A stretch of DNA of 64,000 nt, taken from positions 620,001-684,000 of the forward strand of contig NZ_JAPFQP010000001.1 in the NCBI RefSeq assembly GCF_026241225.1, written 5' to 3'. The translations under genes and the position numbers were made by a program. Positions 39,889 through 59,986 of this stretch are shown here, in pieces. This DNA is from Lentiprolixibacter aurantiacus (GTDB lineage: Bacteria > Bacteroidota > Bacteroidia > Flavobacteriales > Flavobacteriaceae). The notes under the pieces were generated by a model. That model searched no databases and was not told the DNA's origin. It worked only from the letters and a program-made list of their open reading frames with translations. Position 1 is the first letter of the stretch. Every line of letters starts with the position of its first letter.

Positions 39889-41382
39889 ATGGCTATCAAA
39901 GCTTTTGCGGCACGTCTTTTTGCTTCCTGGGTATCCCGAAAAACCAAACGCTGGGTTTCCCAACCTGTTGCCATCCAGGAAAAGGTCTTTCGCGAACTCA
40001 TACAAAAAGGCTCACGGACCCAGTTTGGAAAGGATCACCACTTTGATTCGATCAGGAATCACCAGGATTTCGTATCAAGGGTCCCGGTCCGGGACTACGA
40101 GGCTTTGCGGCCATATGTGGACAGGGTGGTAAAGGGAGAAAAAGACATTTTATGGCCCGGCAGGCCGGTATACCTGGCGAAGACTTCCGGTACTACCTCT
40201 GGGGCAAAGTATATCCCGATTACCAATATATCTATCAAAGAACAGATTAAGGCTTCCCGCAATGCCATCCTTAGCTATATACATGAGACGGGAAATACCC
40301 GGTTTGTTACCGGCAAGATGATATTCCTCCAGGGTAGCCCGGAACTGGAAAAGAAGAACGGCATACATCTGGGGCGTCTATCGGGAATCTCCGCTCATTA
40401 TGTCCCAAAGTACCTTCAAAAGAATAGAATGCCCAGTTGGGAAACCAACTGCATTGAGGACTGGGAAACCAAGGTCAATGCAATAGTCAGGGAGACCCTG
40501 CCCGAAAACATGACTGTAATTGCCGGTATTCCCTCCTGGGTGCAGATGTACTTTGAGAAGCTGCAGCAGGCAACGGGCAAAAAAGTAGGGGAAGTGTTTA
40601 AAAACTTCCAGCTGTTCATCTATGGGGGCGTCAATTATGAACCTTACCGGGCAAAATTTGAAAACCTGATTGGCCGCAAAGTAGATAGCATAGAGCTTTT
40701 CCCGGCCAGTGAAGGGTTTTTCGCCTACCAGGATTCCCAGAAGGAAAAAGGGATGCTGTTGCTGCTCAATGCGGGAATCTTTTACGAATTTATCCGGGCA
40801 GATGAGTTTTACGAAGAATCACCCAAAAGACTTACGATTGCTGATGTTGAAATCGGGGTAAACTACGTGATGATTATTTCTACCAATGCAGGATTGTGGG
40901 GGTACAACCTTGGAGATACCGTTCAGTTTATTTCTGTAAAACCCTATCGAGTCATTGTTTCTGGTCGGATCAAACATTTTATCTCGGCTTTTGGAGAACA
41001 CGTAATTGCCAAGGAGGTAGAAGAAGCCATGAGGGAAGCTATCGCCCAAACAGATGCAAGAGTCAATGAGTTTACAGTTGCACCACGTGTGGAAGTAGTA
41101 GGGGAACTGCCCTTTCATGAATGGCTGGTCGAATTTGAGCATCCACCCGCAGACATGAAACGCTTTATCGCTGTTCTGGATGAGACCCTACAGGAGCAGA
41201 ACAGCTATTATTACGATTTGATAGCCGGAAAAATCCTTCAACCACTTAAGGTTACGCATATCAAAGCGGGAGGCTTTCAGGAATACATGAAGTCGATTGG
41301 CAAACTGGGCGGACAGAACAAGGTGCAGCGCCTGGCAAATGACAGCAAACTGGCCGATGCGCTGCATGCTTTCAAGCTATAG
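39889..41382 (+). CDS. GH3-family acyl-adenylate-type enzyme
   Basis: The 497-aa protein matches the GH3 (auxin-responsive promoter) family, known in plants for ATP-dependent conjugation of carboxylic acids to amino acids. The nucleotide-binding loop YLAKTSGTTSGAKYIPIT, the block ELFPASEGFFAYQD and the block GLWGYNLGDTVQF are intact, and the C-terminal mobile domain (FGEHVIAKEVEEAM) is present. The family is widespread in Bacteroidota, but the bacterial substrate is unknown. It is tightly coupled to the M23 peptidase, so a link to envelope metabolism is possible (inference). Confidence 0.85.
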   Translation: MAIKAFAARLFASWVSRKTKRWVSQPVAIQEKVFRELIQKGSRTQFGKDHHFDSIRNHQDFVSRVPVRDYEALRPYVDRVVKGEKDILWPGRPVYLAKTSGTTSGAKYIPITNISIKEQIKASRNAILSYIHETGNTRFVTGKMIFLQGSPELEKKNGIHLGRLSGISAHYVPKYLQKNRMPSWETNCIEDWETKVNAIVRETLPENMTVIAGIPSWVQMYFEKLQQATGKKVGEVFKNFQLFIYGGVNYEPYRAKFENLIGRKVDSIELFPASEGFFAYQDSQKEKGMLLLLNAGIFYEFIRADEFYEESPKRLTIADVEIGVNYVMIISTNAGLWGYNLGDTVQFISVKPYRVIVSGRIKHFISAFGEHVIAKEVEEAMREAIAQTDARVNEFTVAPRVEVVGELPFHEWLVEFEHPPADMKRFIAVLDETLQEQNSYYYDLIAGKILQPLKVTHIKAGGFQEYMKSIGKLGGQNKVQRLANDSKLADALHAFKL

Positions 41383-41434
41383 CAAATTCGCACTTAGAAA
41401 TCGCCGGAAATACCTTCTTCTCTGGGCAAATTCA

Positions 41435-41442
41435 TAAATTTG
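41435..41442 (+). promoter_or_regulatory. -7 box of the polysaccharide locus
   Basis: TAAATTTG is a full TAnnTTTG match 21 bases before the ATG at 41463. The genes from 41463 to 56413 are then packed with tiny gaps or overlaps, so this may be the main promoter of the locus. Confidence 0.55.
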
Positions 41443-41462
41443 CATCACATAGCAACCAATTC

Positions 41463-43151
41463 ATGAGCAATTTTAAAGAAACTACCCGGGCACAGGAATC
41501 TACCAATGCCATAGAACGCTTGTATGTCACCATGAGGCATTTGTTCAACCGGGGATTTTACAAACCCACCGGGGTATCAGGGGAAAGCCTTAAAAATGCC
41601 CTGCTGTTGCTGAGGCCTGAGATCTATGGTTCTATTGCTGAGGAAAAAACAGAATTGGACGGTTTGATCTATGTACTGGACCGGCTCCCGGAAGGTATAC
41701 ATGAATGCCGGTATATCAATCTTACCTCAGACGAAGGCTATGCCAGTTCACACCTGAAGCCTATCATACCCCCCAAAAGGCGGCGTAATTGCTATCGTAT
41801 TGATCAGGAGCAGATGAATATCGAAATTACCAGGGGCCGATCTGACATATATGATATCCTTACCCACCTTACCTTCCTGTTCATAGAATCCCAGAAAATA
41901 GCAGACAAAGTACTTATTGAAGAAACTCATGAAACTATCAGGGACTGGAAGAAGCTGGAGGCTGCTGCAACCAAAGAAAAGCTCAGCCAGGCAGAAAAGG
42001 AAACCGCATTAATCCATACCGCCAGCATTTTGGGACGCTCTTTCCTTGAGGTTATTGATATTTACAAGAAACTGGGCCGGAAGTCAGACCCGGAACGTTT
42101 CCTCAAGATCATTTACTGGCTGGGGAAACTGGCCATAGAAGAGGAAACCGGGGGAGAAAAAAGGATCATAACTTTTAGCACCCTACTCCGCGAGCGATTG
42201 GGCCACCATATCCATGGAGAACAGTGGGCCAATACCGTGAAAGACACTCTGAATAAGCACGGACTGCTGCAGCGGCCCATCCATATCATCAGCGCCAACA
42301 TGCACAGCGTTATGAATTCACTCTATGCAAAAAAAGCACTGAAAAATGAATTCCCGGAAAACGGTTCCCTGGAGATTTATGAGCAACTCAGCCAGGAGGG
42401 GAACAATAAATTGCAGGATAAGGTTACCGCTGTGGCCAGGAAGAATGGTATGATTGAAATCGATGATGTTTCCGGGACCAATATTGACGTGCAGATCTTC
42501 GATATGGCGAAATTGGGCAGGGACGCCTGTTGTTATGAGTTACCTGGAGGTATACCGGATGCGGAAAAACCCGTTATATTTGTTATGGACTACGCATTCG
42601 GGGAACAGGCTTACGAAACGATAGATGAGTTGCTGAAGCCCTACAGACCCAAAGACAAACCCCCTGTTTTCCTGGATGTAGCATCAATATCCATTATGGG
42701 TAAAGCGGGTATACTGGAAGGCGGCAAGGGAGATCTGATGATCCCTAATGCCCATATGTTTGAAGGCACAGCAGACAACTATCCTTTCCAGAATGAGTTG
42801 AGCGGAGCAGATTTCGAGGGGAATGGCCTGAAAGTACGGGAAGGGACTATGGTTACAGTGCTGGGCACCTCCCTTCAAAACAGGGATATCCTGAAGTTTT
42901 TCCATGACTCTACCTGGGGGGTTATTGGCCTGGAAATGGAAGGGGTGCACTATCAGAAAGCCATACAATCCGCATCCAAGATCCGCAAAAGCATACGAGA
43001 AGACGTTAAGGTGCGTTATGCCTATTACGCATCGGATAACCCCCTGGAGACAGGAAGTACGCTGGCCTCCGGAGGACTCGGCAAGGCAGGGGTAAAACCC
43101 ACTTACCTGATCACAGACAAAATTCTCAAACAAATATTTAATTCCATTTGA
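41463..43151 (+). CDS. Uncharacterised protein with nucleosidase-like EMEG motif
   Basis: The 562-aa protein has no signal peptide or membrane segment, so it is cytoplasmic. I recall homologs in Flavobacteriaceae only as a domain of unknown function. The N-terminal half is helical. The C-terminal half contains TMVTVLGTSLQNRD, then GVIGLEMEGVHYQKAI and YYASDNPL. The EMEG segment is the ribose-binding signature of the MTA/SAH nucleosidase and purine nucleoside phosphorylase superfamily. A nucleoside- or nucleotide-cleaving activity is therefore an inference. The gene lies 1 base ahead of the Wzz-like gene and should be co-transcribed with it. Confidence 0.6.
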   Translation: MSNFKETTRAQESTNAIERLYVTMRHLFNRGFYKPTGVSGESLKNALLLLRPEIYGSIAEEKTELDGLIYVLDRLPEGIHECRYINLTSDEGYASSHLKPIIPPKRRRNCYRIDQEQMNIEITRGRSDIYDILTHLTFLFIESQKIADKVLIEETHETIRDWKKLEAAATKEKLSQAEKETALIHTASILGRSFLEVIDIYKKLGRKSDPERFLKIIYWLGKLAIEEETGGEKRIITFSTLLRERLGHHIHGEQWANTVKDTLNKHGLLQRPIHIISANMHSVMNSLYAKKALKNEFPENGSLEIYEQLSQEGNNKLQDKVTAVARKNGMIEIDDVSGTNIDVQIFDMAKLGRDACCYELPGGIPDAEKPVIFVMDYAFGEQAYETIDELLKPYRPKDKPPVFLDVASISIMGKAGILEGGKGDLMIPNAHMFEGTADNYPFQNELSGADFEGNGLKVREGTMVTVLGTSLQNRDILKFFHDSTWGVIGLEMEGVHYQKAIQSASKIRKSIREDVKVRYAYYASDNPLETGSTLASGGLGKAGVKPTYLITDKILKQIFNSI

Positions 43152-43152
43152 T

Positions 43153-44154
43153 ATGAGCGACAACCCAACCAATAATCAAAACCAGTCAGACGAAATAGAT
43201 CTGGGACAATTATTCGCGATGATTGGCAGAGGATTCAACAACCTGTTTAAGGGGTTGTTGAGAGGTTTTTTATACCTCAAAAGGAATCTGGTGATACTCG
43301 CTACATTAATTATTGTGGGTGGTTTACTCGGGTTTGCACTGAAATTTGTGGTTGGGGAAGAACAAAAGCTGGATGTGATCGTAACCCCCAACCTGGACAC
43401 TAAGAACTATCTCTATGATGTGGTTGCCGAAATTCAATCCGATATTAAATCCAAGGACACGGTTTTCTTTTCCTCAATGGGGATGGATATGGATAAAATG
43501 GACGGGTTTAAAATCGAAATAACCCCGTTAAAAACACAAAGTGGATCTGGCCTGGAAGATGAAATGAAGTTCCTGGAATTGCTTAAAGATTTTGACAATT
43601 CAGATGAGATAACCGATATTCTTAAGTCCGAATTAGAGGACAAGACTACCAAAGACCAACGCATTACCTTCTACTTCAAGGATGCCAAATCTGGCAAGGA
43701 ATACGCCCAAAAAATAATAGACTATATCAACTCAAATCCCTATTATACTGATTTATTGAAAGTGTATACGGAGAATGCCCAGAACCGTATTAGGCGCAAT
43801 GACTCGTTAATTGGGCAGATCGATGTGCTGATAAACAACTACACCCAGAAAATGCTGAAGGAACAGGCGATGACTGAGGGGCGACTTGTACTGGAAAATC
43901 AGGAGCCCCTGAACATCCCTTCTCTTTTTGAATTGAAAACCCGATTGACCAGGGATACGGAAGAAAAGAAACTGGAACTGGAAGAAACAGAAAAAGCAAT
44001 TACGGTAGTTAATTTTGGCAAGCCCCACAAGGTACAGAAACCATTATTTCAAAAGGACGTTGCCCTTATTCCATTAATTTTTGTTGGTCTCTTTTTCCTT
44101 TTCTCCTTTATTCGATATTTAAACCGAAAGGCTAAAGAAATGCACGCTGGATGA
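43153..44154 (+). CDS. Wzz-like polysaccharide chain-length determinant
   Basis: The 333-aa protein has two membrane helices, one near the N terminus (about residues 47-67, after a basic stretch) and one near the C terminus (about 300-320), with a periplasmic helical region between. This is the layout of Wzz polysaccharide co-polymerases, which set the modal length of O-antigen or capsule chains. There is no C-terminal tyrosine kinase domain. Its stop overlaps the start of rfbB (ATGA-type), which ties it to the sugar genes. Confidence 0.75.
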   Translation: MSDNPTNNQNQSDEIDLGQLFAMIGRGFNNLFKGLLRGFLYLKRNLVILATLIIVGGLLGFALKFVVGEEQKLDVIVTPNLDTKNYLYDVVAEIQSDIKSKDTVFFSSMGMDMDKMDGFKIEITPLKTQSGSGLEDEMKFLELLKDFDNSDEITDILKSELEDKTTKDQRITFYFKDAKSGKEYAQKIIDYINSNPYYTDLLKVYTENAQNRIRRNDSLIGQIDVLINNYTQKMLKEQAMTEGRLVLENQEPLNIPSLFELKTRLTRDTEEKKLELEETEKAITVVNFGKPHKVQKPLFQKDVALIPLIFVGLFFLFSFIRYLNRKAKEMHAG

Positions 44155-45239
44155 TGGACAAGAACCCCTCCAGGAAAATATTAATTACAGGAGGAGCCGG
44201 ATTTATTGGTTCCCAGGTGGTTCGGGAGTTTGCGAAGAAGTATTCCGAGTATCATATCTACAATCTGGACGCATTGACCTATGCGGGAAACCTTGAAAAT
44301 TTAAAGGACATAGAAGATGCTTCAAATTATACGTTCATTAAAGGGGATATCACCCGGCAGGATTTTATCCAAAACCTCTTTGAAAAGCATCGGTTTGATA
44401 GTGTTATCCATCTGGCAGCGGAATCCCATGTAGACCGGTCAATAACAGACCCCCTGGCCTTTGTCAAAACAAATGTACTGGGAACGGTCAGCCTGCTGAA
44501 CGCCGCTCGTGATATATGGGAGGGGGCTAAAGCTGACAAGCGATTTTATCATGTAAGCACCGATGAGGTATATGGCACCCTGGGAGAGGAAGGGTTATTT
44601 ACAGAAGAAACCCCCTATGACCCCAATTCTCCTTATTCTGCCTCCAAGGCCAGCTCAGACCACTTTGTAAGGGCTTATGGTGAGACTTATGGATTGCCTT
44701 ATGTGATAAGCAATTGCTCAAACAATTACGGGCCCTATCATTTTCCTGAGAAGCTCATACCCTTGTTTATCAATAACATCATTAATAACAAACCATTGCC
44801 AGTTTATGGTGACGGGAATTATATCAGGGACTGGCTGTTTGTAAAAGACCATGCTGTTGCCATAGATCTGGTTTTCCATAAAGGCAGGAATGGTGAAACC
44901 TATAATATTGGTGGCTTTAATGAATGGAAGAATATTGACCTGGTGCGATTGTTATGCCAGAAAATGGATAAAAAACTGGGAAGACCTAAAGGGGCATCAG
45001 AGAAGTTGATCACATTCGTAAAGGACCGTCCCGGACATGACTTGCGATATGCCATTGATGCTGGCAAAATAAATCGTGAATTGGGATGGAAGCCATCGGT
45101 AACTTTTGAAGAAGGGCTTGATATAACCATTGATTGGTATTTGGAAAATGCGGCCTGGCTCGAGCACGTAACAAGCGGGTCTTACAAAACCTACTACGAG
45201 AGAATGTACAGAGGGAGGGAAGTAACAAAAAAGGATTAA
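44151..45239 (+). CDS. rfbB: dTDP-glucose 4,6-dehydratase
   Basis: The 362-aa extended short-chain dehydrogenase converts dTDP-glucose to dTDP-4-keto-6-deoxyglucose, the second step of dTDP-rhamnose synthesis. The NAD motif is TGGAGFIG (residues 13-20). The catalytic Asp-Glu pair lies in STDEVYG (D138, E139), and Y162/K166 in YSASK form the catalytic dyad. Length and all key residues are normal. It overlaps the Wzz-like gene by 4 bases and is followed by rfbA after 2 bases. Confidence 0.96.
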
Positions 45240-45241
45240 AG

Positions 45242-46102
45242 ATGAAAGGAATTATCCTTGCCGGGGGTTCCGGAACGCGTTTGTATCCCATTACCCTGGC
45301 AGTAAGCAAACAGCTGATGCCGGTATATGACAAACCTATGATTTATTATCCCCTGGCCACCTTGATGAGCGCAGGAATCCGTGAAATATTGATCATAACC
45401 ACTCCTCAGGATGCGCCTCTTTTCGCCAAATTGCTGGGCGATGGTTCACAGCTGGGCTGCCGTTTTGAGTACGCCGAACAAAAGACCCCGGCGGGTATTG
45501 CTGAAGCCTTTCTCATTGGCAGGAATTTTATTGGGACGGATAAAGTGGCCCTGATCCTGGGCGACAACATATTTTATGGATCGGGACTGTCCAGACAATT
45601 GCAGGAGAACAGCGATCCCGAAGGTGGGATTATTTATGCCTATCACGTTCAGAACCCAAGTCGATACGGAGTAGTAACATTCAATGAAATGGGAGTGGCC
45701 GAATCCATTGAAGAAAAACCATCGGATCCCAAATCAAATTATGCCATACCCGGCATCTATTTTTACGATAATCAGGTGGTTCAACTGGCGGAGGAGATAA
45801 AGCCCAGTAAGCGGGGAGAATTGGAAATAACGGATATTAATAAGGCCTACATGCAGAAAGGGAAATTACAGGTGAGCATTATGGACCGTGGAACCGCCTG
45901 GCTGGATACAGGCACATTTGAATCCCTGATGCAGGCTGCACAATTTGTTGAGGTAATAGAAAACAGGCAGGGGCTAAAGATAGGGGCCATTGAAGAAGTG
46001 GCCTTTACCATGGGATATATTGGAAAGGAACAGTTGCGAAAGCTGGCAGAACCGCTTAAAAACAGTGGTTACGGAGAATACTTATTACAATTACTGGATT
46101 AA
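45242..46102 (+). CDS. rfbA: Glucose-1-phosphate thymidylyltransferase
   Basis: The 286-aa enzyme joins dTTP and glucose-1-phosphate to form dTDP-glucose, the first step of dTDP-rhamnose synthesis. The signature is [11 protein letters not shown] (residues 6-16), then KPMIYYPL and the magnesium-binding LGDNIFYG. The ATG at 45242 is chosen: it follows the rfbB stop by 2 bases and gives the normal length, while the frame itself stays open back to 45134 inside rfbB. Confidence 0.96.
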
Positions 46103-46112
46103 ACAGCAAGAA

Positions 46113-46658
46113 TTGAAGATCCACAATACAGATATTGTCGGTTGCATTGTTCTGGAACCCATTATTTACAAGGATTCCAGGGGAGATTTTATGGAGACCT
46201 TCCATAAAGCAGAACTGGAAGAGGCATTAGGATATCCAATTGATTTTGTTCAGGACAATCAGTCGGTCTCTCATAAGAATGTCCTAAGAGGATTGCATTT
46301 CCAGCGAGGGAAACATGCCCAGGCCAAGTTGGGAAGAGTAATTCAGGGAAGTGCCCTCGATGTTGTTGTAGATTTAAGAAAAGAAAGCCCCAGTTTTGGA
46401 AAGACCGTAACAATAGAACTCACCGGGGAAAACAGGCTTCAAATTTTCATACCAAAAGGAGTTGCCCATGGCTTTCTTGCTTTGGAAAACCAAACGGTAT
46501 TTTCCTATAAGTGCGATGCATATTACAATAGGGAATCAGAAGCAGGTATCCTGTATAATGACCCTGATCTGTGTATTGACTGGGGTATTCCCGACGAAGA
46601 CCTCATTCTTTCAGAAAAGGACAGGGCATTGCCACTGTTTAAACAGCTTTATTCATGA
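46113..46658 (+). CDS. rfbC: dTDP-4-dehydrorhamnose 3,5-epimerase
   Basis: The 181-aa cupin-fold epimerase catalyses the third step of dTDP-rhamnose synthesis. RGLHFQ contains the catalytic His62 and FSYKCD contains the catalytic Tyr132. The start is the TTG at 46113, because the residues that follow (KIHNTDIVGCIVLEP) form the normal RmlC N terminus and no ATG is suitably placed in this frame. The ATG at 45990 lies inside rfbA and would add 41 unrelated residues. It overlaps rfbD by 4 bases. Confidence 0.93.
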   Translation: MKIHNTDIVGCIVLEPIIYKDSRGDFMETFHKAELEEALGYPIDFVQDNQSVSHKNVLRGLHFQRGKHAQAKLGRVIQGSALDVVVDLRKESPSFGKTVTIELTGENRLQIFIPKGVAHGFLALENQTVFSYKCDAYYNRESEAGILYNDPDLCIDWGIPDEDLILSEKDRALPLFKQLYS

Positions 46659-47431
46659 AGCGGGTTTTGGTAACCGGATCCAGTGGCCAACTGGGAATGA
46701 CTTTACAGGAGTTGGCGCCAGAATATCCGGAAATGCGGTTCCATTTTACCGATAAATCCTCAATGGATATTACCCGGCCGGAAGAAGTCAGTCTGGTTTT
46801 TGAACAACTAAAACCCGACTACTGCATCAACTGTGCCGCTTATACCCGGGTAGACCAGGCCGAAAAGGAACCGGATGCTGCCTATGAATTAAATGTAAGG
46901 GGAGTAAAACATCTGGTAAGTGCTTGTAAGGAATCAAATACTGTGCTGATACACATCTCTACCGATTATGTATTTGATGGCACCAGGAAAGAAGGCTACG
47001 GTCCTGAAGATGTCCCGAACCCTATCAATGTTTACGGCAAAACCAAGCTTGAAGGGGAGCAACTGATCCAGGCGCATTTGGATCATTATTTTATCGTTCG
47101 CACCTCCTGGTTGTATTCCAGGAAATACGGGCATAATTTCTATAAAACTATCCTGGCCAAGGCAAAAGCCGGGGAAGCACTCACAGTAACCGATAAGGAA
47201 CGGGGATGCCCTACAGACACTGTTAATCTCGCTAAATATTTATTGGATTTGATCGCAACAAGGAGTGCCGAATATGGAATAAAACATTTCTCAGACGGGG
47301 AACCCATGACCTGGTACGAGTTTGCTGAAAGCATCCTCAATGATAATGGATACAGGGATAAAGCAGACTTACAAAGGGGAGAGAATTATCGTACTTTTGC
47401 GCAGAGGCCAGTAAATTCAGTCTTGATATGA
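46655..47431 (+). CDS. rfbD: dTDP-4-dehydrorhamnose reductase, C-terminally truncated
   Basis: The 258-aa enzyme completes dTDP-L-rhamnose synthesis by NADPH-dependent reduction. The cofactor motif VTGSSGQLG (residues 6-14), STDYVFDG and the catalytic Y127/K131 in YGKTK are intact. Family members usually run to about 280-290 residues with a tail that begins RP..S.LD and continues about 25-30 residues. Here the frame stops at RPVNSVLI, right where the next gene starts (4-base overlap) and base composition changes. The core is complete, so it may remain active, but the missing tail is a sign of recombination at this point. Confidence 0.9.
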   Translation: MKRVLVTGSSGQLGMTLQELAPEYPEMRFHFTDKSSMDITRPEEVSLVFEQLKPDYCINCAAYTRVDQAEKEPDAAYELNVRGVKHLVSACKESNTVLIHISTDYVFDGTRKEGYGPEDVPNPINVYGKTKLEGEQLIQAHLDHYFIVRTSWLYSRKYGHNFYKTILAKAKAGEALTVTDKERGCPTDTVNLAKYLLDLIATRSAEYGIKHFSDGEPMTWYEFAESILNDNGYRDKADLQRGENYRTFAQRPVNSVLI

Positions 47432-48063
47432 TCATTTCACATCGCGGATATTGGAAAATAAACAGCGAAAAGAACACTGTAAAAGCTTTTGAACGCTCAT
47501 TTTCATTAGGCTTTGGAACGGAAACTGATATCAGGGATTATAAGGGTGAATTAGTAATTTCTCATGATATGCCCAATCCTAATACTAATCATCTGTCCGT
47601 AAAAGATTTCTTTTCTATTTACAACTCCTACAATAAAACGCTTTTACTGGCTTTGAACATAAAGGCAGATGGTCTACAAGAACCATTAAACGATATAATC
47701 AAGGAGTACGACATTCGTAATTACTTCGTATTTGACATGTCTGTTCCAGATGCAATCGGATATCATAAATATAACATCAATACTTTCACTCGAGAAAGTG
47801 AATACGAAAATCCACCTAGTTTCTATGAACAAGCAAAAGGGGTTTGGATGGATGAATTTCAAGACTCCTGGATAGAAACATCCTTAATTCAGCGTCATGT
47901 TGATTCAAACAAACAAGTTTGTATTGTGTCACCAGAATTACATGGCAGGACATATGAAGATAAATGGGAGAAATATCGGGGTAGGGTAAATTTTAATTCA
48001 AATAAACATATTCACCTTTGTACTGACGTACCGGAATTAGCCAAAGAATACTTCAATGAGTAA
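47428..48063 (+). CDS. Glycerophosphodiester phosphodiesterase-like TIM-barrel protein
   Basis: The 211-aa protein shows the GDPD pattern: the catalytic HRG (ISHRGYW) at the N terminus, SEKNT.KAF, ETDIRD with the metal-binding Glu and Asp, and ISHD with the second His. It is a little shorter than most GDPDs and has no signal peptide, so it acts in the cytoplasm. Family members cleave glycerophosphodiesters to an alcohol and glycerol-3-phosphate. In a polysaccharide cluster it could supply or recycle a phospho-alcohol, but this is inference. It overlaps the truncated rfbD by 4 bases and the HAD gene by 8. Confidence 0.75.
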   Translation: MIISHRGYWKINSEKNTVKAFERSFSLGFGTETDIRDYKGELVISHDMPNPNTNHLSVKDFFSIYNSYNKTLLLALNIKADGLQEPLNDIIKEYDIRNYFVFDMSVPDAIGYHKYNINTFTRESEYENPPSFYEQAKGVWMDEFQDSWIETSLIQRHVDSNKQVCIVSPELHGRTYEDKWEKYRGRVNFNSNKHIHLCTDVPELAKEYFNE

Positions 48064-48688
48064 GATTAAAGCAATTATTTTTGACATGGATGGAGTTCTC
48101 ATAGATGCGAAAGATTGGCACTATGAAGCGCTTAACAAAGCATTGGCCTTATTTGGCCTTGAAATAAGCAGATATGATCATTTAGTAACTTATGACGGAT
48201 TGCCTACCAGGAAAAAACTGGAGATGCTATCGGTCGAGAACGGATTGCCGAAGAAGTTGCACACTTTTATAAATAATATGAAACAGGCCTACACAATGGA
48301 AATTGTTCATTCCTTTTGCAAGCCTGTTTTTTATCATGAATATGCTTTGGCTAAACTGAAATCAGAGGGGTTTAGTCTTGCTGTTTGTTCTAACTCTATA
48401 AGGAACTCAGTTAAGGTGATGATGGAAAAATCTGCATTGATGCCATATCTGGATTTTTACCTCTCTAACCAGGATGTAACTCATGGGAAGCCTAACCCAG
48501 AGATGTATATTAAAGCAATTGAGAGATTAGGACTTAAACCTTCTGAGTGCTTAATTGTAGAGGATAACGAGAATGGAATAAAAGCAGCTGAAGGTAGCGG
48601 TGCACATGTTATGAAAGTTGAAGATGTGGAGGACGTATACTTTCAAAATATTAAAAACCATATTAACAGAATTGAAAATGGAGCATAG
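48056..48688 (+). CDS. HAD-superfamily phosphatase/phosphoglucomutase-like hydrolase
   Basis: The 210-aa protein has the HAD motifs: DMDGVLID with the nucleophilic Asp, the Ser of VCSNS, the Lys of HGKPNPEMY, and VEDNENGIKAA. A helical cap follows motif I. It belongs with the beta-phosphoglucomutase/phosphatase branch that acts on sugar or polyol phosphates. Next to nucleotidyltransferases, it is likely to process a phosphorylated precursor of the activated group (inference). It overlaps the neighbouring genes by 8 and 11 bases. Confidence 0.8.
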   Translation: MSKIKAIIFDMDGVLIDAKDWHYEALNKALALFGLEISRYDHLVTYDGLPTRKKLEMLSVENGLPKKLHTFINNMKQAYTMEIVHSFCKPVFYHEYALAKLKSEGFSLAVCSNSIRNSVKVMMEKSALMPYLDFYLSNQDVTHGKPNPEMYIKAIERLGLKPSECLIVEDNENGIKAAEGSGAHVMKVEDVEDVYFQNIKNHINRIENGA

Positions 48689-49415
48689 AAAACTAGACGT
48701 TTTAATTCCATTGGCGGGGACCAGTATTTTCTTTAATGAAAGCAACTATCCTTTCCCCAAGCCACTTATAGAAGTAAACGGAAAACCAATGATCCAGTTG
48801 GTATTGGAACAATTAAATTCAATGGAGATTGTTGAGAAATTCATTTTTGTTTTAAACAGTGAAGATTGCAGGAAATTCCATTTAGATAGTGTTCTTAGAC
48901 TTTTGACCGATAATAGGTGCGAGATCATCAAGCTAGACAAAACAACCAAAGGAGCAGCTTGTAGTGTACTTATGGCTATAGATGAAATCAATCCTGAAAA
49001 AGAACTATTGATTTGCAACGGGGATCAGATAATTGAAGAAGATTACAACGATATTATTGGTCATTTCCGAACGGATGATTATGATGCAGGTGTTGTAACC
49101 TTTAATTCTGTGCATCCAAGATGGTCTTATGTTCGTTTGGATAAGAAAGGTGAAATAATAGAAACCGCAGAGAAGAGACCTTTAAGCAACTCTGCCATCG
49201 CAGGGTTCTATTATTTTAAAAAAGGCCAAATGTTTGTTGATGCCGCGATGAAAATGATTGAAAAGGGAGCTAGTGTTAATGATGCCTATTATATCGCTCC
49301 TACTTTGAATGAGCTCGTCCTGCAGAATTGCAAATTGGGAGTCTATGCTATTGAAAACGAGAAGTACCACTCATTTTATTCCCCTCAAAATATAAAAGCT
49401 TATGAGTCAATATAA
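48678..49415 (+). CDS. Divergent nucleotidyltransferase-like protein (paralog A)
   Basis: The 245-aa protein has a GT-A/NTP-transferase fold. The N-terminal LIPLAGTSIFF takes the place of the usual AG.GSR loop, but the PKPLIEVNGKPMI block, KGAACSVL and the metal-site ICNGDQI are kept. It is paralogous to the gene at 50077-50817, sharing GAAC(S/T)VL, LL..N.DQI and (A/V)G.YYF-type blocks. The Gly-rich loop lacks the Arg that normally contacts the nucleotide phosphates, so activity may be altered. The ATG at 48678 is preferred to upstream frames inside the HAD gene. Confidence 0.75.
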   Translation: MEHRKLDVLIPLAGTSIFFNESNYPFPKPLIEVNGKPMIQLVLEQLNSMEIVEKFIFVLNSEDCRKFHLDSVLRLLTDNRCEIIKLDKTTKGAACSVLMAIDEINPEKELLICNGDQIIEEDYNDIIGHFRTDDYDAGVVTFNSVHPRWSYVRLDKKGEIIETAEKRPLSNSAIAGFYYFKKGQMFVDAAMKMIEKGASVNDAYYIAPTLNELVLQNCKLGVYAIENEKYHSFYSPQNIKAYESI

Positions 49416-49746
49416 CCTAATCGACCTTACCGAGCAGTATATTAAAGCATTTGACTCTAAAGATTTACAAGGATTAGCTGAAATGTTGTGTGATGATTTT
49501 GTTTTAGAAGACCCCGCCGTAATTAGAGTTGAAGGAAAGGAGAACTCCCTTGTAAAAATTGCTGAAATATTCAATAATTGTGACAAGTTATCATTTACCG
49601 CACAAAACATATTCAGAGATGAAAGCAATACAATTATTGAGTTTCATTTAAAACTAGATGATCTAATGCTGAAAGGCACGGACATTATTGTTTGGAGTGG
49701 AGATAAAATGAAAGAATTAAGAGCATATTTAGACCTTCCCAAATAG
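49402..49746 (+). CDS. NTF2/SnoaL-like small protein
   Basis: The 114-aa protein has the cone-shaped NTF2/SnoaL pattern: an N-terminal helix (LIDLTEQYIKAFDSKDLQGL), LCDDFVLEDPAV, then beta strands ending DKMKELRAYLDLP. This fold serves enzymes (isomerases, cyclases) and non-catalytic binding proteins, so no reaction can be assigned. It overlaps paralog A by 14 bases and precedes the cupin gene by 8 bases. Confidence 0.65.
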   Translation: MSQYNLIDLTEQYIKAFDSKDLQGLAEMLCDDFVLEDPAVIRVEGKENSLVKIAEIFNNCDKLSFTAQNIFRDESNTIIEFHLKLDDLMLKGTDIIVWSGDKMKELRAYLDLPK

Positions 49747-49754
49747 TAAAGTAA

Positions 49755-50087
49755 ATGAAAAAAAGAAACTTAAAGGAAATGACCAAGGGTTGGTTTGTAG
49801 GAAATTTTGAACCAACTGTTTATCAGACGAATGACGTTGAGGTTGCAATTAAGGAATACAATAAAGGCGATTTTGAAGATATGCATTATCATAAACTCGC
49901 AACAGAGATCACAACTATAGTTTCGGGTTCTGTTCTGATGAACGGCAAAACTTACCAGCAAGGAGATATTATAATAATTTCACCTTTTGAATCTACAGAT
50001 TTCAAAGCTTTAGAAGATACTGTAACTGCAGTGGTTAAAATCCCGGGGGCTAATAACGATAAATACATGGGCATATATGAGCATTAA
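49755..50087 (+). CDS. Cupin-fold protein
   Basis: The 110-aa protein shows cupin motif 1 as MHYHKLATEITTIVSG (H.H....E......G), so metal binding is likely. Motif 2 is poorly conserved (GDIIIISPFESTDF). Small cupins in polysaccharide clusters are often sugar-nucleotide epimerases or isomerases, but others are regulators. The substrate is unknown. It overlaps nucleotidyltransferase paralog B by 11 bases. Confidence 0.7.
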   Translation: MKKRNLKEMTKGWFVGNFEPTVYQTNDVEVAIKEYNKGDFEDMHYHKLATEITTIVSGSVLMNGKTYQQGDIIIISPFESTDFKALEDTVTAVVKIPGANNDKYMGIYEH

Positions 50088-50817
50088 TATAGTGATTCCA
50101 ATGGCGGGCGCTGGCAGCAGATTTGCCAAAGAAGGATACTTAAAACCAAAACCATTTATTGATGTAATGGGTAAGCCCATGATAGTGAGGGTAATGGAGA
50201 ATCTAGAGTATCCTGATGCTAAATATATACTGGTGGCCCAAAAGGAGCATATGGAAAGGGAGAAGGCATTAATTGAGCAAATATCTTCCAAGTATAATGC
50301 TGTTTTTGTTCCTATAGACCACCAGACAGAAGGTGCCGCCTGCACAGTGCTTCATGCAAGGAAGTATATAAATAATGACGAGCCGCTATTAATGGCAAAC
50401 TCTGATCAAATTGTGGACTTTGATTTAAAAGCATACATTGAGGATTGTGTTGAAAGAGGCGGTGACGGATCTATCCTGACTTTTCGGGATATAACAAAAA
50501 ATCCAAAATGGTCTTTTGCCCAAATTTCCGAAAATGGAGAAGTTGAAAGGGTAAAAGAGAAGGAGGCAATATCCGAGTATGCGACGGTTGGATTATATTT
50601 TTTTTCTAAAGGGCGTTTTTTTGTCAATTCTGCTATAGATATGATAGTTGCTAATGACAGGTCCAATAATGAGTTTTATACGTGCCCCGTTTATAACTAT
50701 TCAATCAGGGAGGGAAAGAGAATATTGATCTATAATATCCCGGAAAGTAATATGCACGGAATAGGAACACCGGCAGATCTAAATGCTTTTCTTGAAAAGA
50801 ATCCTTTAAACTATTAA
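50077..50817 (+). CDS. Sugar/alcohol-phosphate nucleotidyltransferase (paralog B)
   Basis: The 246-aa NTP-transferase has the intact Gly-rich loop IPMAGAGSRFAKEG and KPKPFIDVMGKPMI, EGAACTVL, and the metal-binding MANSDQI, with a C-terminal HGIGTPADL motif typical of sugar nucleotidyltransferases. It should activate a phosphorylated sugar or small alcohol with a nucleotide. The nucleotide and substrate are not visible. It is the second copy of the family in four genes and, unlike paralog A, keeps the key Arg. Confidence 0.82.
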   Translation: MSINIVIPMAGAGSRFAKEGYLKPKPFIDVMGKPMIVRVMENLEYPDAKYILVAQKEHMEREKALIEQISSKYNAVFVPIDHQTEGAACTVLHARKYINNDEPLLMANSDQIVDFDLKAYIEDCVERGGDGSILTFRDITKNPKWSFAQISENGEVERVKEKEAISEYATVGLYFFSKGRFFVNSAIDMIVANDRSNNEFYTCPVYNYSIREGKRILIYNIPESNMHGIGTPADLNAFLEKNPLNY

Positions 50818-50820
50818 GAA

Positions 50821-51612
50821 GTGAAGATTGCATTATGCTATCACGGGATTGCAAAAGGTAAAAACTTCAAAAGTGGAGGACTAGATGTTGGATATCGCAA
50901 TGAGTTCGATCTAATTCAAAGAAATCTGATTTGGTCTAACCCTGATCATGATTTTGATGTTTTCATGCATTCCTGGTCCAAGGAATTTGAACAGGAGGTG
51001 GTTGATTATATGCAACCCCTTAAGTTTGATTTTGAAGAGCCTAAGGAACTAAGAAAAGCACCATTACTTCTTCTTATCAAGGAGCTTATTAAAAAAGCCT
51101 TAGGGAAGGATTATGAATTCAAACGCCTTAACAATATCTATTCGAGGTGGTATAGTTTTAAAAGATCAATTGACTTAATTGCAGAGAGTGGAAATGAATA
51201 TGACCTAATAATAGCCACTCGCTTCGATATGAGCCTATTGTCACCCTTTTTACTTAACAATATTAGTCCGAGTAAGTTTTATTCAGGGGATTGGATAGGC
51301 GCTTTCTATGAAGATCGATTATTGGAAGGATACGAATACGGGGATTTCAAGCTTAATCCAAAAACGGTCTTAAATCCTATTGGCTATCCTTATGATGATA
51401 GAGGTCTTCAAGATTTCTTTTTTATATCTGGAACAGAATATATGATGACCAAATTTTCCAAAATATTTGATTACTTAGATAGGCTAATTCCAAAGTATGG
51501 GAAAAGCAATCATTTCATTGCTCTTGGCCAATTAAAAGAAACCGGGATGGAAAAAAATCATAGTCGCATCTTGAAGTATGGGGAAGATTATTTTTTATCT
51601 CGATGGCTATAA
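50821..51612 (+). CDS. Putative glycosyltransferase-like protein of unknown family
   Basis: The 263-aa protein starts with a GTG, 3 bases after the preceding stop. KIALCYHGIAKGKNF at the N terminus, FDVFMHSWS and LIIATRFDMSLLSPF look like the nucleotide-binding beginning and the R.D motif seen in some capsule-locus transferases. No family could be assigned with confidence. Lack of a signal peptide and its position ahead of the flippase suggest a cytoplasmic sugar- or group-transfer role (inference). It overlaps the next gene by 10 bases. Confidence 0.55.
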   Translation: MKIALCYHGIAKGKNFKSGGLDVGYRNEFDLIQRNLIWSNPDHDFDVFMHSWSKEFEQEVVDYMQPLKFDFEEPKELRKAPLLLLIKELIKKALGKDYEFKRLNNIYSRWYSFKRSIDLIAESGNEYDLIIATRFDMSLLSPFLLNNISPSKFYSGDWIGAFYEDRLLEGYEYGDFKLNPKTVLNPIGYPYDDRGLQDFFFISGTEYMMTKFSKIFDYLDRLIPKYGKSNHFIALGQLKETGMEKNHSRILKYGEDYFLSRWL

Positions 51613-53940: not shown

Positions 53941-55205
53941 ATAAATGGCTAACTATTTTATTGTTAACTATCCCTCTAACCTTTAAGATTGAATTGCTTG
54001 AAGGGTTCCGAATAATGCCCCAGGAGCCCTTCCTTATAATCCTGTGCTTTCTAATAACACTTAAAAATCTGAATAATAAAATTCAGAATTTCTCAATCCC
54101 TTACATTTTTCTAATTCTTTGCCTGATATTAATAATTATAAGCTCGCTGGTATCACTGTTTTTTACCTGGGATGTTATAGGAGTTGCTAAAACTCTGAAA
54201 TATTTGTTATACGCATACTCTATCTTTCTTCTTCTGAATTCTCCTATCGATCATACCAAAACCAGATCTAATATGCTAAAGATTGGATCGTGGGTTGTTA
54301 TTATATCATTATCTCTCTATTTATATTGGTATTGGTCTTTGGGAATGTCCTGGGGAAATTTTGTATCCTTTACAACCTGGAATGCAGAATACATGCCCAC
54401 TGGTTTTAGCAATATGGTGTTGAATCTTCAAAGTGGCATGTTTGAGCGAATAGGAGGCAATCATGGCATTTATGGATCTTACCTTGTGCTATTGCTCATT
54501 TTGGCCATATTTAACTTGCAGGAAACTCATTTCAGAAGAAGTAAAATCTTTACATTACTAATTCTGATCAACATATCATTTCTCACCTCCAGAGAGACCT
54601 TATTGCTACTCATTCTAACCTTTGGATTTTATTGCACTTATATCGTTTTGTTATCTAGGTTTTCAAAAAGGTATGTTTACCTAACGCTTTTATTCCTATT
54701 CATAGGAACGATCTCTTTGTTGATATGGCAACCAGACGTAGTTCTGTTCAATAAAATAGAACACATGTTGAGCTCCTTTTCTGAAAGAGGTCGGGTTGAC
54801 AATAATGTATCTTACAGACTCAATACATGGTATCTTTTTTTTCAATATATATGGGAACATCCTCAATGGATATTGTTAGGGTTTGGATTTAATAGGATCA
54901 GGTTTGAGGAGATTTTATCTATTCAAGAACAATTAGAAGGAGTAAGTTTGGCGCATGTGTCTGTACCTGAAAGCTTTTATGTTGGCACTCTGGCCTATGG
55001 AGGGATTTTCTCTCTTTTCTGTGGGATACTTTTTTTTGTTTTTCTTCTCATTTTTCTTGGCCGTCGCGGTAAATTAGGAATTCTGTTGTTCTTTTATGTA
55101 GTAGGTCTTATGCTTACCAATGGCACTGGTTCCTCAGTGTTGGCGGAATTAATGCTATCTCAGTTGGGATTGGTGTATCTATATGTTCAAAAAAATCTTG
55201 GATGA
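53937..55205 (+). CDS. Wzy/O-antigen polymerase-like membrane protein
   Basis: The 422-aa protein has about ten to twelve membrane helices and a larger hydrophilic loop around residues 270-350 (ERGRVDNNVSYRLNTWYLF, then LLGFGFNRIRFEE). This is the layout of O-antigen polymerases and ligases (Wzy_C). It overlaps the preceding glycosyltransferase and the following gene by 4 bases each. With a second Wzy/WaaL-like gene next to it, one of the two may polymerise and the other ligate. This one is the better polymerase candidate because it is less like WaaL (inference). Confidence 0.7.
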   Translation: MNKWLTILLLTIPLTFKIELLEGFRIMPQEPFLIILCFLITLKNLNNKIQNFSIPYIFLILCLILIIISSLVSLFFTWDVIGVAKTLKYLLYAYSIFLLLNSPIDHTKTRSNMLKIGSWVVIISLSLYLYWYWSLGMSWGNFVSFTTWNAEYMPTGFSNMVLNLQSGMFERIGGNHGIYGSYLVLLLILAIFNLQETHFRRSKIFTLLILINISFLTSRETLLLLILTFGFYCTYIVLLSRFSKRYVYLTLLFLFIGTISLLIWQPDVVLFNKIEHMLSSFSERGRVDNNVSYRLNTWYLFFQYIWEHPQWILLGFGFNRIRFEEILSIQEQLEGVSLAHVSVPESFYVGTLAYGGIFSLFCGILFFVFLLIFLGRRGKLGILLFFYVVGLMLTNGTGSSVLAELMLSQLGLVYLYVQKNLG

Positions 55206-56413
55206 GTAGTAGAACGGTCATGCCAGTAATGGCAGGAATTGTCTTGACCATTTCCCTGGTAAGCATTCGCTATGGTAGTATTATGTGTTTGATGCTATTT
55301 TTGGCATCTGGATTTTTCCTTATAAGGGAAAAGCCTAAACTCCCTAATATTTGGGCCTATATTCCCTTTTTGATTTATATAGCACTTAACTTAGTTTTCT
55401 TTTTCTTGTCGGACGATCAGGCATTAGCAATAAAAAGACTTGAAAAACAACTGGTTTTGCTATTTATGCCTTCAGTCATATTTCTGTTTGTAAGATCTGG
55501 TGAGGATATACAAAAAAGCCTATTGGCTTTTATTGGCTCTTTATTTGTTTTATCTGTTATTTCCCTAATCATCCTTATGGAGTTTTATTTTACAAACCTG
55601 GAGTTTGTAGGTAGCATGGATGAAAATTATTTACAATGGAAATACCCCCACCTTCTTGGGATACATCCAACATATTGGAGTTATTATCTTGTTGTTGCGA
55701 GTACATTGCTATTATGGCTCCCTTTTTCTCGATTACAGAATTATGCCAGGGTAGGTCTTTTACTTATTTTTAATTTGAATCTGTTTTATCTGGCAAATAG
55801 AGCTTCTATAGCAATAAATATCGTTTTAATAGGAATTTGGCTTGTATTCTATTTAAGGCAGAAATCCGGTCGCTCTCTGTTAAAAAGAACTGCTGCTATT
55901 CTTGGCGTAATAAGCCTTGTAATTGTCTTATTTCTGCAGTCCTCGTACTTCCGTAAAAAAATTATTGATCTGATTAACGCTAAAGACGAAAGATTCTTTT
56001 TATGGGATAGATCGTTAGATATAATAGCCCAAAATGATTTTATATACGGAGAAGGAATAGGTGGAGGACAGCAGAGATTAAGAGAAATAATGATGGAGGA
56101 ATATGGACAAAATGATCCAAGAGAGGAATATAAAGAGTTTGATGTCCACAACCAATATATTCATGATTACCTGGATTACGGCATATTCGGATTATTCTCA
56201 ATTCTACTAATAGTTTTTTATCCGGCACGTTACATGAAGAGAATAGATAAACAAACCTTAGTCCTTGCGAGTATTATGCTGCTGTTTTTTTCATCCCAAT
56301 TGGTCGAATCTGTTTTCATAAGGTTTCAAGGCAAAGTTCTATATGCAACTTTGTACCCATTATTAATTGTTTCAATTAAAATGGCAGAGGATCTGAGCAA
56401 AAACGATCATTGA
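55202..56413 (+). CDS. O-antigen ligase-family membrane protein
   Basis: The 403-aa protein has about ten membrane helices and a periplasmic loop with GEGIGGGQQRLREIM, then DVHNQYIHDYLDYGIFG. The HNQYI motif preceding a helix is characteristic of the WaaL/O-antigen ligase Wzy_C domain. It could transfer the finished chain to lipid A-core or to protein, or polymerise it. It is the last gene of the uninterrupted run. The next gene has its own promoter. Confidence 0.75.
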   Translation: MSSRTVMPVMAGIVLTISLVSIRYGSIMCLMLFLASGFFLIREKPKLPNIWAYIPFLIYIALNLVFFFLSDDQALAIKRLEKQLVLLFMPSVIFLFVRSGEDIQKSLLAFIGSLFVLSVISLIILMEFYFTNLEFVGSMDENYLQWKYPHLLGIHPTYWSYYLVVASTLLLWLPFSRLQNYARVGLLLIFNLNLFYLANRASIAINIVLIGIWLVFYLRQKSGRSLLKRTAAILGVISLVIVLFLQSSYFRKKIIDLINAKDERFFLWDRSLDIIAQNDFIYGEGIGGGQQRLREIMMEEYGQNDPREEYKEFDVHNQYIHDYLDYGIFGLFSILLIVFYPARYMKRIDKQTLVLASIMLLFFSSQLVESVFIRFQGKVLYATLYPLLIVSIKMAEDLSKNDH

Positions 56414-58633: not shown

Positions 58634-59986
58634 ATGTTTACTAGAGAAGGCAGGTATTCATTTATGATAAGCCCATTATCATATTTGCTTGACCTTCTGA
58701 TAATCAATTTATTGGCTCATTTTCTGCCCTTGCAATTTCAATTTCCCTTGGTATTTCACACATACATCTCCCTGGGTTGGATTATCATTGCAATATTAAC
58801 TGAGTTCTATGCGATTTATAGGTATTCAAAAGTTACCTACATTTTAAGATTGCTAACCAGGCAGCTATTTTTCTTCTTTTTAATCCTCTACGCTTTTATT
58901 GGCTTCTTTAAACAGCCTAACATGAGCCGACTTGCCCTGGCTCAATATGCTGGGTTGGTTTTTTTCACAGTTTCAATCCTGAAATTCATAAGCTATTATT
59001 TGTTGATGAATTATCGGGGAAAGATAAAGGGGAACCTTCGAAACGTTGTAGTAATTGGAAAAAACAAAAAAACACAACAGCTTATTGACGTATTTAATGA
59101 ACATGCCGAGTTTGGATACGATTTTAAAAAGCAATTCTGCCCAAAAGAAGATGTTTTTAATATCTATAAGTGCTTCAGGTATATAGTAGACAATAACATA
59201 GACGAAATATACTGCTCGGTATCTGAATTGTCCAATACACAGATTGATGAAATCATCAATTTTGCAGACAATAACCTCAAAACACTCAAGTTTCTGCCCG
59301 ATAATAAGAACATTTACACCAAGAAACTGAAGTATGAGTATTATGATTATCTGCCTATTCTTTCGCTACGGGATATTCCCCTGCATAAACCATTAAATGC
59401 ATTGGTCAAGAGGACCTTCGATATCGTTTTTAGCTTGGTGATGATATTTGGACTTTTGATCTGGATAGGTCCAATCCTCGCCATCCTGATAAGCTTGGAA
59501 TCAAGAGGCCCCTTGTTTTTTATCCAGAAGAGATCGGGACTGGATAATAGGCCATTCAACTGCTATAAGTTCCGTTCCATGGCTATGAACAAGGATGCAG
59601 ATAAGCATCAGGCCAGGAAGAATGATATGCGTATTACCAAGATAGGAAAGTTCATACGCAAAACCAGCATTGATGAACTCCCCCAGTTCTATAACGTTTT
59701 GTTTGGAAATATGTCTGTGGTAGGGCCCAGACCCCATATGTTGAAACACACGGATGAATATGCCAGCAGGGTGGATAAATTTATGCTCCGTCATTTTGTA
59801 AAACCTGGTATTACCGGGCTCGCTCAGGTAAAAGGATATCGAGGGGAAATACAAAAAGAAAGTGATATACAGAACCGGATTAAGCTGGATATCTTCTACA
59901 TCGAAAACTGGTCGTTTCTACTCGACTTGAAAATAATTGTACAAACCATTCTGAATATTTTTAAAGGCGAAGACAAAGCCTATTAA
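58634..59986 (+). CDS. Polyprenyl glycosylphosphotransferase (initiating enzyme)
   Basis: The 450-aa WcaJ/WbaP-type enzyme has four N-terminal membrane helices, a cytoplasmic Rossmann-like domain (VVVIGKNKKTQQLI) and the C-terminal catalytic domain: KRTFDIVFS, the re-entrant helix, KFRSM, RKTSIDELPQF, MSVVGPRPH and PGITGLAQVKGYRGE. It transfers a sugar-1-phosphate to undecaprenyl phosphate and so starts the repeat unit. All catalytic blocks are intact. The N-terminal half is AT-rich like the cassette, while the catalytic half is closer to the host composition, so the gene may be a mosaic. Confidence 0.93.
   Translation: MFTREGRYSFMISPLSYLLDLLIINLLAHFLPLQFQFPLVFHTYISLGWIIIAILTEFYAIYRYSKVTYILRLLTRQLFFFFLILYAFIGFFKQPNMSRLALAQYAGLVFFTVSILKFISYYLLMNYRGKIKGNLRNVVVIGKNKKTQQLIDVFNEHAEFGYDFKKQFCPKEDVFNIYKCFRYIVDNNIDEIYCSVSELSNTQIDEIINFADNNLKTLKFLPDNKNIYTKKLKYEYYDYLPILSLRDIPLHKPLNALVKRTFDIVFSLVMIFGLLIWIGPILAILISLESRGPLFFIQKRSGLDNRPFNCYKFRSMAMNKDADKHQARKNDMRITKIGKFIRKTSIDELPQFYNVLFGNMSVVGPRPHMLKHTDEYASRVDKFMLRHFVKPGITGLAQVKGYRGEIQKESDIQNRIKLDIFYIENWSFLLDLKIIVQTILNIFKGEDKAY

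Follow-up and report, generated by a model that had tools for sequence, protein, structure and literature searches.

The window analysed here is a stretch of 64,000 nucleotides of the genome of the flavobacterium Lentiprolixibacter aurantiacus (contig 1, bases 620001-684000; the source genome comprises 3.13 Mb in 9 contigs), and this study concerns a run of six of its genes, coding for a GDPD-like protein, a HAD protein, two nucleotidyltransferases (NTase A and NTase B), an NTF2/SnoaL-like protein and a cupin (Table 1). These genes represent one instance of a module which is widespread and, it seems, undescribed. The six open frames, coupled by overlaps or small gaps, which the sequence-only reading of this stretch had listed are all in place on the plus strand. 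The overlaps are 8 bases (gdpd/had), 11 bases (had/ntA, with the ATG at 48678; 8 bases if counted from 48681), 14 bases (ntA/ntf2) and 11 bases (cupin/ntB), and a gap of 8 bases separates ntf2 from the cupin gene. The gene run is unbroken from rmlD, which overlaps gdpd by 4 bases, through the module to the predicted glycosyltransferase gene at 50821, which begins after a gap of 3 bases.

Table 1. Genes of the module and of the surrounding polysaccharide locus (positions in the window)
Feature	Position	Strand	Basis
GDPD-like phosphodiesterase-fold protein, 211 aa	47428..48063	+	predicted fold and residues, Asn-x-Lys subfamily
HAD-IA phosphatase or phosphomutase, 210 aa	48056..48688	+	PF13419 and catalytic residues
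NTase A, paralogous to NTase B (NTP_transferase fold) but lacking the Arg of GxGxR	48678..49415	+	PF00483; ATG at 48678
NTF2/SnoaL-like protein, optional	49402..49746	+	SnoaL_2/NTF2, E 9.1e-9
Single-domain cupin, motif GX5HXHX4EX6G	49755..50087	+	aligned relatives
NTase B, sugar-phosphate nucleotidyltransferase, intact GxGSR	50077..50817	+	PF00483 and motif
Predicted GT-A glycosyltransferase, GT6-like fold; probable user of the activated group	50821..51612	+	structure model
RmlD, end of the rmlB-A-C-D set (44151-47431), before the module	46655..47431	+	search (rmlB, A, C named by reading)
Wzy_C (O-antigen ligase) family protein	55202-56413		Pfam scan
Initiating sugar transferase (Bac_transf), same polysaccharide locus	58634..59986	+	Pfam scan

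Conservation and spread of the module

A three-row HAD alignment was used as the query for related loci, because the first scan of genome contigs, with the GDPD protein as query, gave no relative. The best 80 of the 337 HAD relatives found with this alignment define the 80 loci discussed below, all of which were searched in six frames with profiles; being the top HAD relatives, these loci favour orthologues. The five core genes (GDPD-like, HAD, NTase A, cupin and NTase B) occur together in 70 of the 80 loci, and the idea that the set forms a module is borne out by direct observation of its conservation as a unit. Considered singly, NTase A is found in all 80 loci, GDPD in 78, NTase B in 76 and cupin in 72, and the NTF2/SnoaL-like gene is optional (13/80). 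The complete loci have the five genes on one strand in 69 cases and within 5 kb in 67. The gdpd gene directly precedes had in 77 of 78 loci and ntA directly follows had in all 80; the placement of the NTase B and cupin genes is looser, and NTase B is sometimes located upstream. Across 45 loci, each of the ten gene pairs shows correlated between-locus distances (r 0.55 to 0.79), and none of the 999 permutations run for a pair gave a value as high as the one observed. The joint occurrence of the core genes is far beyond chance.

The incomplete loci comprise three which stop at a contig end inside the module (L028, L031 and L058), one with a short NTase B match and no cupin (L050), and others without NTase B (L038), without GDPD (L080), without cupin (L081), with neither cupin nor NTase B (L082 and L087) and without GDPD or cupin (L088). 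Some of the 80 loci look like near-duplicates, having common gene positions or identities (L028/L031, L020/L021 and L091/L093). The loci cover eight phyla, namely Bacteroidota, Pseudomonadota, Campylobacterota, Cyanobacteriota (with Gastranaerophilales), Bacillota and Desulfobacterota, together with Bdellovibrionota and Spirochaetota on one record each; the phyla were assigned from the record titles, which may be wrong for metagenome bins. In the HAD search, Arenibacter algicola has the closest named relative of the window HAD, 81% identical.

In an even sample of 395 genomes of the phylum, 3 genomes are marked by HAD at E up to 1e-40, and the same 3 by cupin at E up to 1e-12 and by NTase B at E <1e-100; GDPD at E <1e-60 also marks these 3, among 296 genomes, with weaker matches (1e-12 to 4e-4) in four more. 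When the limit for NTase B is set at 1e-50, two further genomes of the 395 are reached. In one of these, a genome with 13% contamination, the match is partial (119 residues); for the other, G238, two stops are reported, yet an intact 243-aa frame spans the gene. A divergent set is seen in that Bacteroidota genome (L126 5735-8576), comprising a 243-aa NTase with the motif GEGSR, a 193-aa HAD and a 226-aa NTase relative without GxGxR.

The module is also carried by plasmids. Among 72,556 plasmid records, HAD is matched in 26 (two from Paenibacillus, at 33% identity), GDPD in 24 and NTase B in 25 (one from Legionella, at 35%), and all three are present in the same 24 records, as judged by accession. 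These are not 24 independent cases, since 11 of the 24 are from Rhizobium, several of them near-identical. In the Legionella plasmid, the distant NTase is preceded by a short HAD and followed by two WavE genes. In the five plasmid copies which were opened, the NCBI labels are 'hypothetical protein' or 'phosphodiesterase', 'HAD family phosphatase', 'glycosyltransferase family 2 protein' and, once, 'cupin domain-containing protein'.

Ten IMG/VR loci have a HAD relative: L099 has the full five-gene set, and L100 to L103 and L106 have HAD and an NTase. Short GDPD-like proteins follow in L100, L102 and L103, and in L101 the match is weak and 6 kb off. In the phage collection, HAD matches 20 records, of which 11 are Synechococcus phages. 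Relatives of the 50821 protein are found in four of the viral loci (L100, L103, L104 and L105) and in the cyanophage locus L112, and L102 has a match of the WavE type; when the 50821 protein itself was the query, a viral scan gave no match. Because the viral sets are reduced to HAD, NTase, a short GDPD-like protein and a glycosyltransferase, they suggest that these four are the core of the system, to which NTase A, cupin and NTF2 are additions.

The nucleotidyltransferase pair and its partner proteins

NTase A and NTase B are paralogues, both matched by PF00483 (E 5.5e-14 and 7.2e-15, respectively) in a Pfam scan which covered 20 window proteins (rmlB, A, C, the genes at 43153 and 62487 and those before 38990 lie outside it). 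For the residue comparisons, alignment rows were kept at 0.8 to 1.35 of the median length, which reduces the GDPD alignment from 77 to 68 rows, NTase A from 74 to 67 and NTase B from 70 to 69; the HAD alignment (75 rows) and the cupin alignment (62 rows) are complete, with none dropped for length. With both halves of a fused Azospirillum protein added, as in the tree described below, there are 68 NTase A and 70 NTase B rows.

In NTase B the residues G13, R15, K25 and D110 are present together in all 70 rows, such that the protein has the fold, the GxGxR motif, the lysine and the aspartate of the RmlA/HddC/GlmU-type nucleotidyltransferases; D110 corresponds to the metal-binding aspartate of the PF00483 enzymes. 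In contrast, the arginine of GxGxR is found in none of the 68 NTase A rows, so that the pair, as directly observed, has one intact and one degenerate member, and the two equal nucleotidyltransferases of the sequence-only reading are not upheld. NTase A nevertheless keeps a glutamate (67/68) and a lysine (66/68) of the sugar pocket, presumably sugar-binding residues. The loop which replaces GxGxR is spelt in 62 ways in the 67 rows compared, a variability to be expected where catalysis has been lost. When 68 NTase A rows, 70 NTase B rows and 5 phage rows are placed in one unrooted tree, NTase A forms a single clade (support 1.0). NTase A also has its own set of nearly invariant residues, at positions conserved to 95% or more. 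With the Glu-Lys pocket kept and the arginine lost, NTase A is read as a partner which still binds a sugar or a nucleoside-diphosphate sugar (NDP-sugar), and it is likely, as judged from these alignments, to be a non-catalytic partner of NTase B. The nearest solved structure of NTase B is 4evw_A, which has a generic name only. NTase B misses the NCBIfam cut-offs by far in all matches listed (25 of 30), and it is weakly similar to inositol-1-phosphate cytidylyltransferase (E 1.2e-6).

The model of the GDPD-like protein (pLDDT 96.3) matches solved GDPDs (2o55, E 2.1e-8), and the predicted fold is accompanied by the catalytic histidine pair and the E-x-D motif. His5, Arg6, Glu32, Asp34, His46 and Lys79 are kept in all 68 rows. 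The protein therefore shares with GDPD/UgpQ the TIM-barrel fold, the histidine of the HRG motif, E-x-D, the second histidine and the lysine, but it differs at position 77, which is asparagine in 68 of 68 rows and glutamate in canonical GDPDs; Asn77 is aligned with the glutamate of 1o1z in a low-scoring second segment, and we assume that the glutamate it replaces is the third metal ligand. In the short viral GDPD-like proteins a histidine is seen by eye at this position. The family also differs from GDPD/UgpQ in that the Pfam model PF03009 rarely recognises it: 5 of 63 sequences reach it at E up to 0.01 (best 0.0012), and the window protein has no Pfam family at E up to 0.05. Among viral models, the best match is a "glycosyltransferase/phospholipase" of Bodo saltans virus, which is another link of the GDPD-like protein to glycosylation.

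The HAD protein is matched by PF13419 (E 1.2e-34), and Asp10, Asp12, Ser112, Lys145 and Asp170 are invariant in 75 of 75 rows, corresponding to the catalytic Asp pair, Ser, Lys and Asp of the beta-phosphoglucomutase-like HAD-IA enzymes. Its cap is presumably of class C1 (HAD-IA). The best NCBIfam match is TIGR02009, and the protein stays below every equivalog cut-off among the matches listed (25 of 47), for example with 94.2 bits against a cut-off of 189.4 for TIGR01990, the beta-phosphoglucomutase equivalog. It is nearest to beta-phosphoglucomutase-like phosphatases, and its solved relatives include pyrophosphatases and sugar phosphatases. In the cupin, the positions of the motif GX5HXHX4EX6G, which we take to be the first cupin motif, are kept in 60 to 62 of 62 rows. 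Cupin_2 is matched by 27 of 51 aligned cupin sequences; the window cupin has no Pfam family at E up to 0.05, and the cupin profile has no PDB match at E up to 0.01.

Several of these proteins are fused to each other. HAD is fused to an NTase with intact GxGxR in the IMG/VR contigs L100, L101 and L102 and in the cyanophage locus L112, NTase A is fused to NTase B in Azospirillum (L111) and apparently also in Rhizobium (L128) and Sinorhizobium (L129), in tandem NTase proteins, and NTase A is fused to NTF2 in five gammaproteobacterial loci (L025, L029, L044, L051 and L065). The observed fusions make it likely that HAD, NTase B, NTase A and NTF2 would form one complex.

The protein encoded at 50821 has no Pfam match in the scan, and its model (pLDDT 86.2) has a predicted GT-A glycosyltransferase fold. 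Foldseek matches it to GT6 enzymes at E 2e-6, with best TM-scores of 0.53 and 0.59, and the comparison with 4ayl gives a VIA Z of 14.8 (rmsd 3.2, 190 aligned, 10% identity). The suggestion of the sequence-only reading that this protein transfers the activated group fits the modelled fold. In the fetched stretches of the 80 loci, relatives of the 50821 protein are present in 12, WavE-type transferases in 39 and either of them in 48. Beyond the core genes, only three of the 45 largest gene clusters are found in at least 10 loci, being WavE-like (17), ABC-transporter-like (12) and GDP-mannose-dehydratase-like (10), and no kinase family recurs widely beside the module, the functions of these clusters being assigned by reading.

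A proposed route and its alternatives

It is probable, on balance, that the product of the module is a single nucleotide-activated donor, a sugar or a sugar-like compound, which serves the synthesis of a surface polysaccharide, with NTase B as the active enzyme and NTase A as its partner; the glycosyltransferase character of the neighbouring GT-A and WavE-type proteins points to a sugar or sugar-like donor. We infer each reaction and the order of the steps as follows. HAD would take a sugar phosphate from central metabolism and convert it into a sugar-1-phosphate, either as a phosphatase acting on a bisphosphate or as a phosphomutase, and NTase B would then transfer a nucleotide to this sugar-1-phosphate. 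NTase A, with its sugar pocket kept and without the glycine-arginine loop, could bind the product or the substrate and scaffold or regulate NTase B, with NTF2 as an extra domain of NTase A where it is present. The cupin could be an isomerase or epimerase, or a binding accessory, and the GDPD-like enzyme would cleave a phosphodiester, either freeing the sugar phosphate from a precursor or trimming an unwanted product. The donor would be used by the GT-A transferase, which is the 50821 protein here and a WavE-type enzyme elsewhere. Because few non-core clusters recur, the sugar should lie no more than one or two steps away from central metabolism.

Such a pair of nucleotidyltransferases resembles the eukaryotic GMPPA/GMPPB system, in which the HAD-family enzyme PMM supplies the sugar-1-phosphate and which is not known to have GDPD, cupin or NTF2 partners. 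There, an active pyrophosphorylase, GMPPB, is regulated by an inactive paralogue, GMPPA, as described in PMC11228364 and PMC9168903. In both systems an active NTP_transferase-fold enzyme is kept with a degenerate paralogue, but the module NTases end after the catalytic domain (about 245 aa) and have no beta-helix domain, the role of which is treated in PMC9168903. By analogy, the module pair may work like GMPPB/GMPPA; orthology is not claimed.

Several observations weigh against this assignment of roles. K25 and D110 are both kept in 43 of the 68 NTase A rows, including the window protein, three NTase A rows have a lysine in the arginine column and the Azospirillum row has an arginine one column away, so NTase A may still be active. 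The NTase B clade has a support of only 0.505 in the unrooted tree, and in L012 and L013, from two genomes of the host family, a distant protein made of two NTases keeps GxGxR in both halves. No homolog with a known substrate was found, and the nearest solved NTase, 4evw, has a generic name only. The GDPD step is hard to place in a simple NDP-sugar pathway, and the HAD residues fail to separate phosphatase from mutase. The fold matches of the 50821 protein have TM-scores of only 0.4 to 0.6 at about 10% identity, and neither transferase type is present in the fetched stretch of 32 of the 80 loci. Cupin is missing from 8 of the 80 loci and is matched in only 7 of the 24 plasmid records, once about 90 kb from HAD, and 4 of the 10 viral loci (L104, L105, L107 and L108) have HAD without a module NTase.

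The retention of K25 and D110 in these rows also agrees with a different view of NTase A, in which it is an enzyme of changed chemistry whose sugar pocket serves, for example, epimerisation or transfer without pyrophosphate. Its single well-supported clade, its own nearly invariant residues and its presence in 80 of 80 loci would be understandable in this way. However, the replaced loop is highly variable, which is odd for a new active site, and the fused phage versions have one NTase only, which is intact; we consider this explanation unlikely. As to the GDPD-like protein and HAD, they might instead be house-cleaning enzymes, destroying damaged or wrong-anomer phosphosugars or NDP-sugars from NTase B without supplying a precursor. 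The pyrophosphatases and sugar phosphatases among the solved HAD relatives and the absence of GDPD from 2 of 80 loci are compatible with such a function, but HAD adjoins NTase A in 80 of 80 loci and is fused to an NTase in four viral proteins, an arrangement which suits a pathway step better than clean-up; we consider the house-cleaning function very improbable.

The sequence-only reading has both nucleotidyltransferases at work: a derivative of an alcohol or sugar acid, already phosphorylated, would be activated by them and then joined by a phosphodiester, as in CDP-glycerol or phosphocholine chemistry. The genes of a phosphodiesterase-fold protein, a HAD and NTases are indeed found together, and NTase B has its weak likeness to the inositol-1-phosphate enzyme; but the arginine of GxGxR is absent from all 68 NTase A rows, the Pfam scan of 20 window proteins gives no TagF, LicD or TagD-type family, and the transferases near the module have a predicted GT-A fold (50821) or are of the WavE type. 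We consider this chemistry quite improbable. The CDP-glycerol and phosphocholine/LicD routes were both rejected on the absence of such families from these 20 proteins. The CDP-glycerol and O-methyl phosphoramidate (MeOPN) capsule routes of Campylobacter jejuni resemble the module in being encoded in capsule loci and in using nucleotide activation, and differ from it in their enzymes as far as the 20 scanned proteins show: the former uses a TagD-type cytidylyltransferase and a TagF-type transferase (PMC11924219), and the latter depends on a four-gene set (PMC7901785). Homologs of either route, as well as a gene set not kept together, had been named in advance as outcomes speaking against a new system; within the scope of these scans both were looked for and not found, with nothing of the MeOPN route recognised in the 20 scanned proteins, for which no model of MeOPN enzymes was run. 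A single protein, HS1.08, is credited with activating the fructose found in the capsules of C. jejuni HS1 (PMC7901785, PMC11924219). A fructose donor of this type was considered and dropped, with nothing found that ties fructose to the module.

The preferred reading, in which NTase B activates a sugar and NTase A assists it, describes nucleotide-sugar synthesis, a process of known kind, by a gene set for which no account was found in the open-licence PubMed Central literature searched (subscription journals are outside this scope), which agrees with the earlier remark that the set matches no described pathway. A bolder form of it is offered tentatively: the module could be a cross-phylum pathway, carried by plasmids and phages, to an undescribed nucleotide sugar, in which one working NTase is complexed with a paralogue lacking the catalytic loop, or with two of them in those alphaproteobacterial plasmids that were examined; a GDPD-fold enzyme, its metal site holding an asparagine, would carry out a step new to sugar activation. 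If true, this could be the missing route to a polysaccharide sugar whose activated donor lacks an assigned source. A widespread and tightly kept set, reduced in marine cyanobacterial phages, is probably a common surface-sugar pathway which genome annotation has missed; once solved, the module would put a name to these genes wherever they occur in other genomes, and it would serve as a bacterial example of sugar activation under the control of a pseudoenzyme.

Neighbouring gene sets and related arrangements

The host locus looks like a Wzy-type polysaccharide locus, as judged from its gene content. It starts with rmlB-A-C-D, the module, the GT-A enzyme, a membrane protein without Pfam match and a GT4 enzyme, and continues with a second protein without match, Wzy_C, an epimerase, another GT4 enzyme, the initiating sugar transferase and a UDP-sugar dehydrogenase, some of the names being given by reading.

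Other genomes have related arrangements. In the host-family genomes L012 (8114-11431) and L013 (8546-11863), a related but different set surrounds a 549-aa two-NTase-domain protein; it also includes a GtrA-like protein, a GT2 enzyme and a GDPD-like protein of the Asn-x-Lys type (names partly by reading), and a class II aldolase-like gene and a HAD gene are located upstream. A compact island recurs in six loci (L072, L075, L083, L098, L109 and L110), in which the module is accompanied by a 569-596-aa protein (no Pfam match in the one member scanned), a 160-250-aa protein and WavE; an ABC exporter is present in some of them, and others lie between unrelated genes. In the last of these, a Scandinavium plasmid copy, NTase A looks truncated, with a 141-aa frame giving a weak match (L110 9633-10058), and the GDPD-HAD DNA of Scandinavium has no match in 5,426 E. 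coli genomes at blastn sensitivity.

In the plasmid of Rhizobium sp. L51/94 (L128 998-8729), the module is found just downstream of a gene set comprising a carbohydrate kinase, a glycerol-3-phosphate dehydrogenase, a TIM-barrel protein, a triose-phosphate isomerase and an RpiB-type protein. This set resembles that of erythritol catabolism, and it may be a hint at a four-carbon sugar or a chance neighbour. In L111 (11240-11962), L128 (10280-10987) and L129 (10110-10853), the fused or tandem NTase protein is followed by yet another NTase relative, the third, which is about 240 aa long and lacks GxGxR.

Among the viral records, the five-gene set of L099 (4554-7637) has the order ntB, gdpd, had, ntA, cupin and stands beside ABC-exporter-like genes; this contig, filed as viral, may come from the flank of a prophage, or it may be bacterial and misfiled. 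The Synechococcus phage S-8S55 (L112 4342-9041) has the HAD-NTase fusion and a second HAD, together with three proteins related to that at 50821 and a short GDPD-like one, and the PHROG families matching this set are mostly listed as of unknown function. In the window itself, a GH3-family protein, presumably auxin-amido-synthetase-like, and a DUF6909 protein are encoded upstream of the polysaccharide locus (39889-43151).

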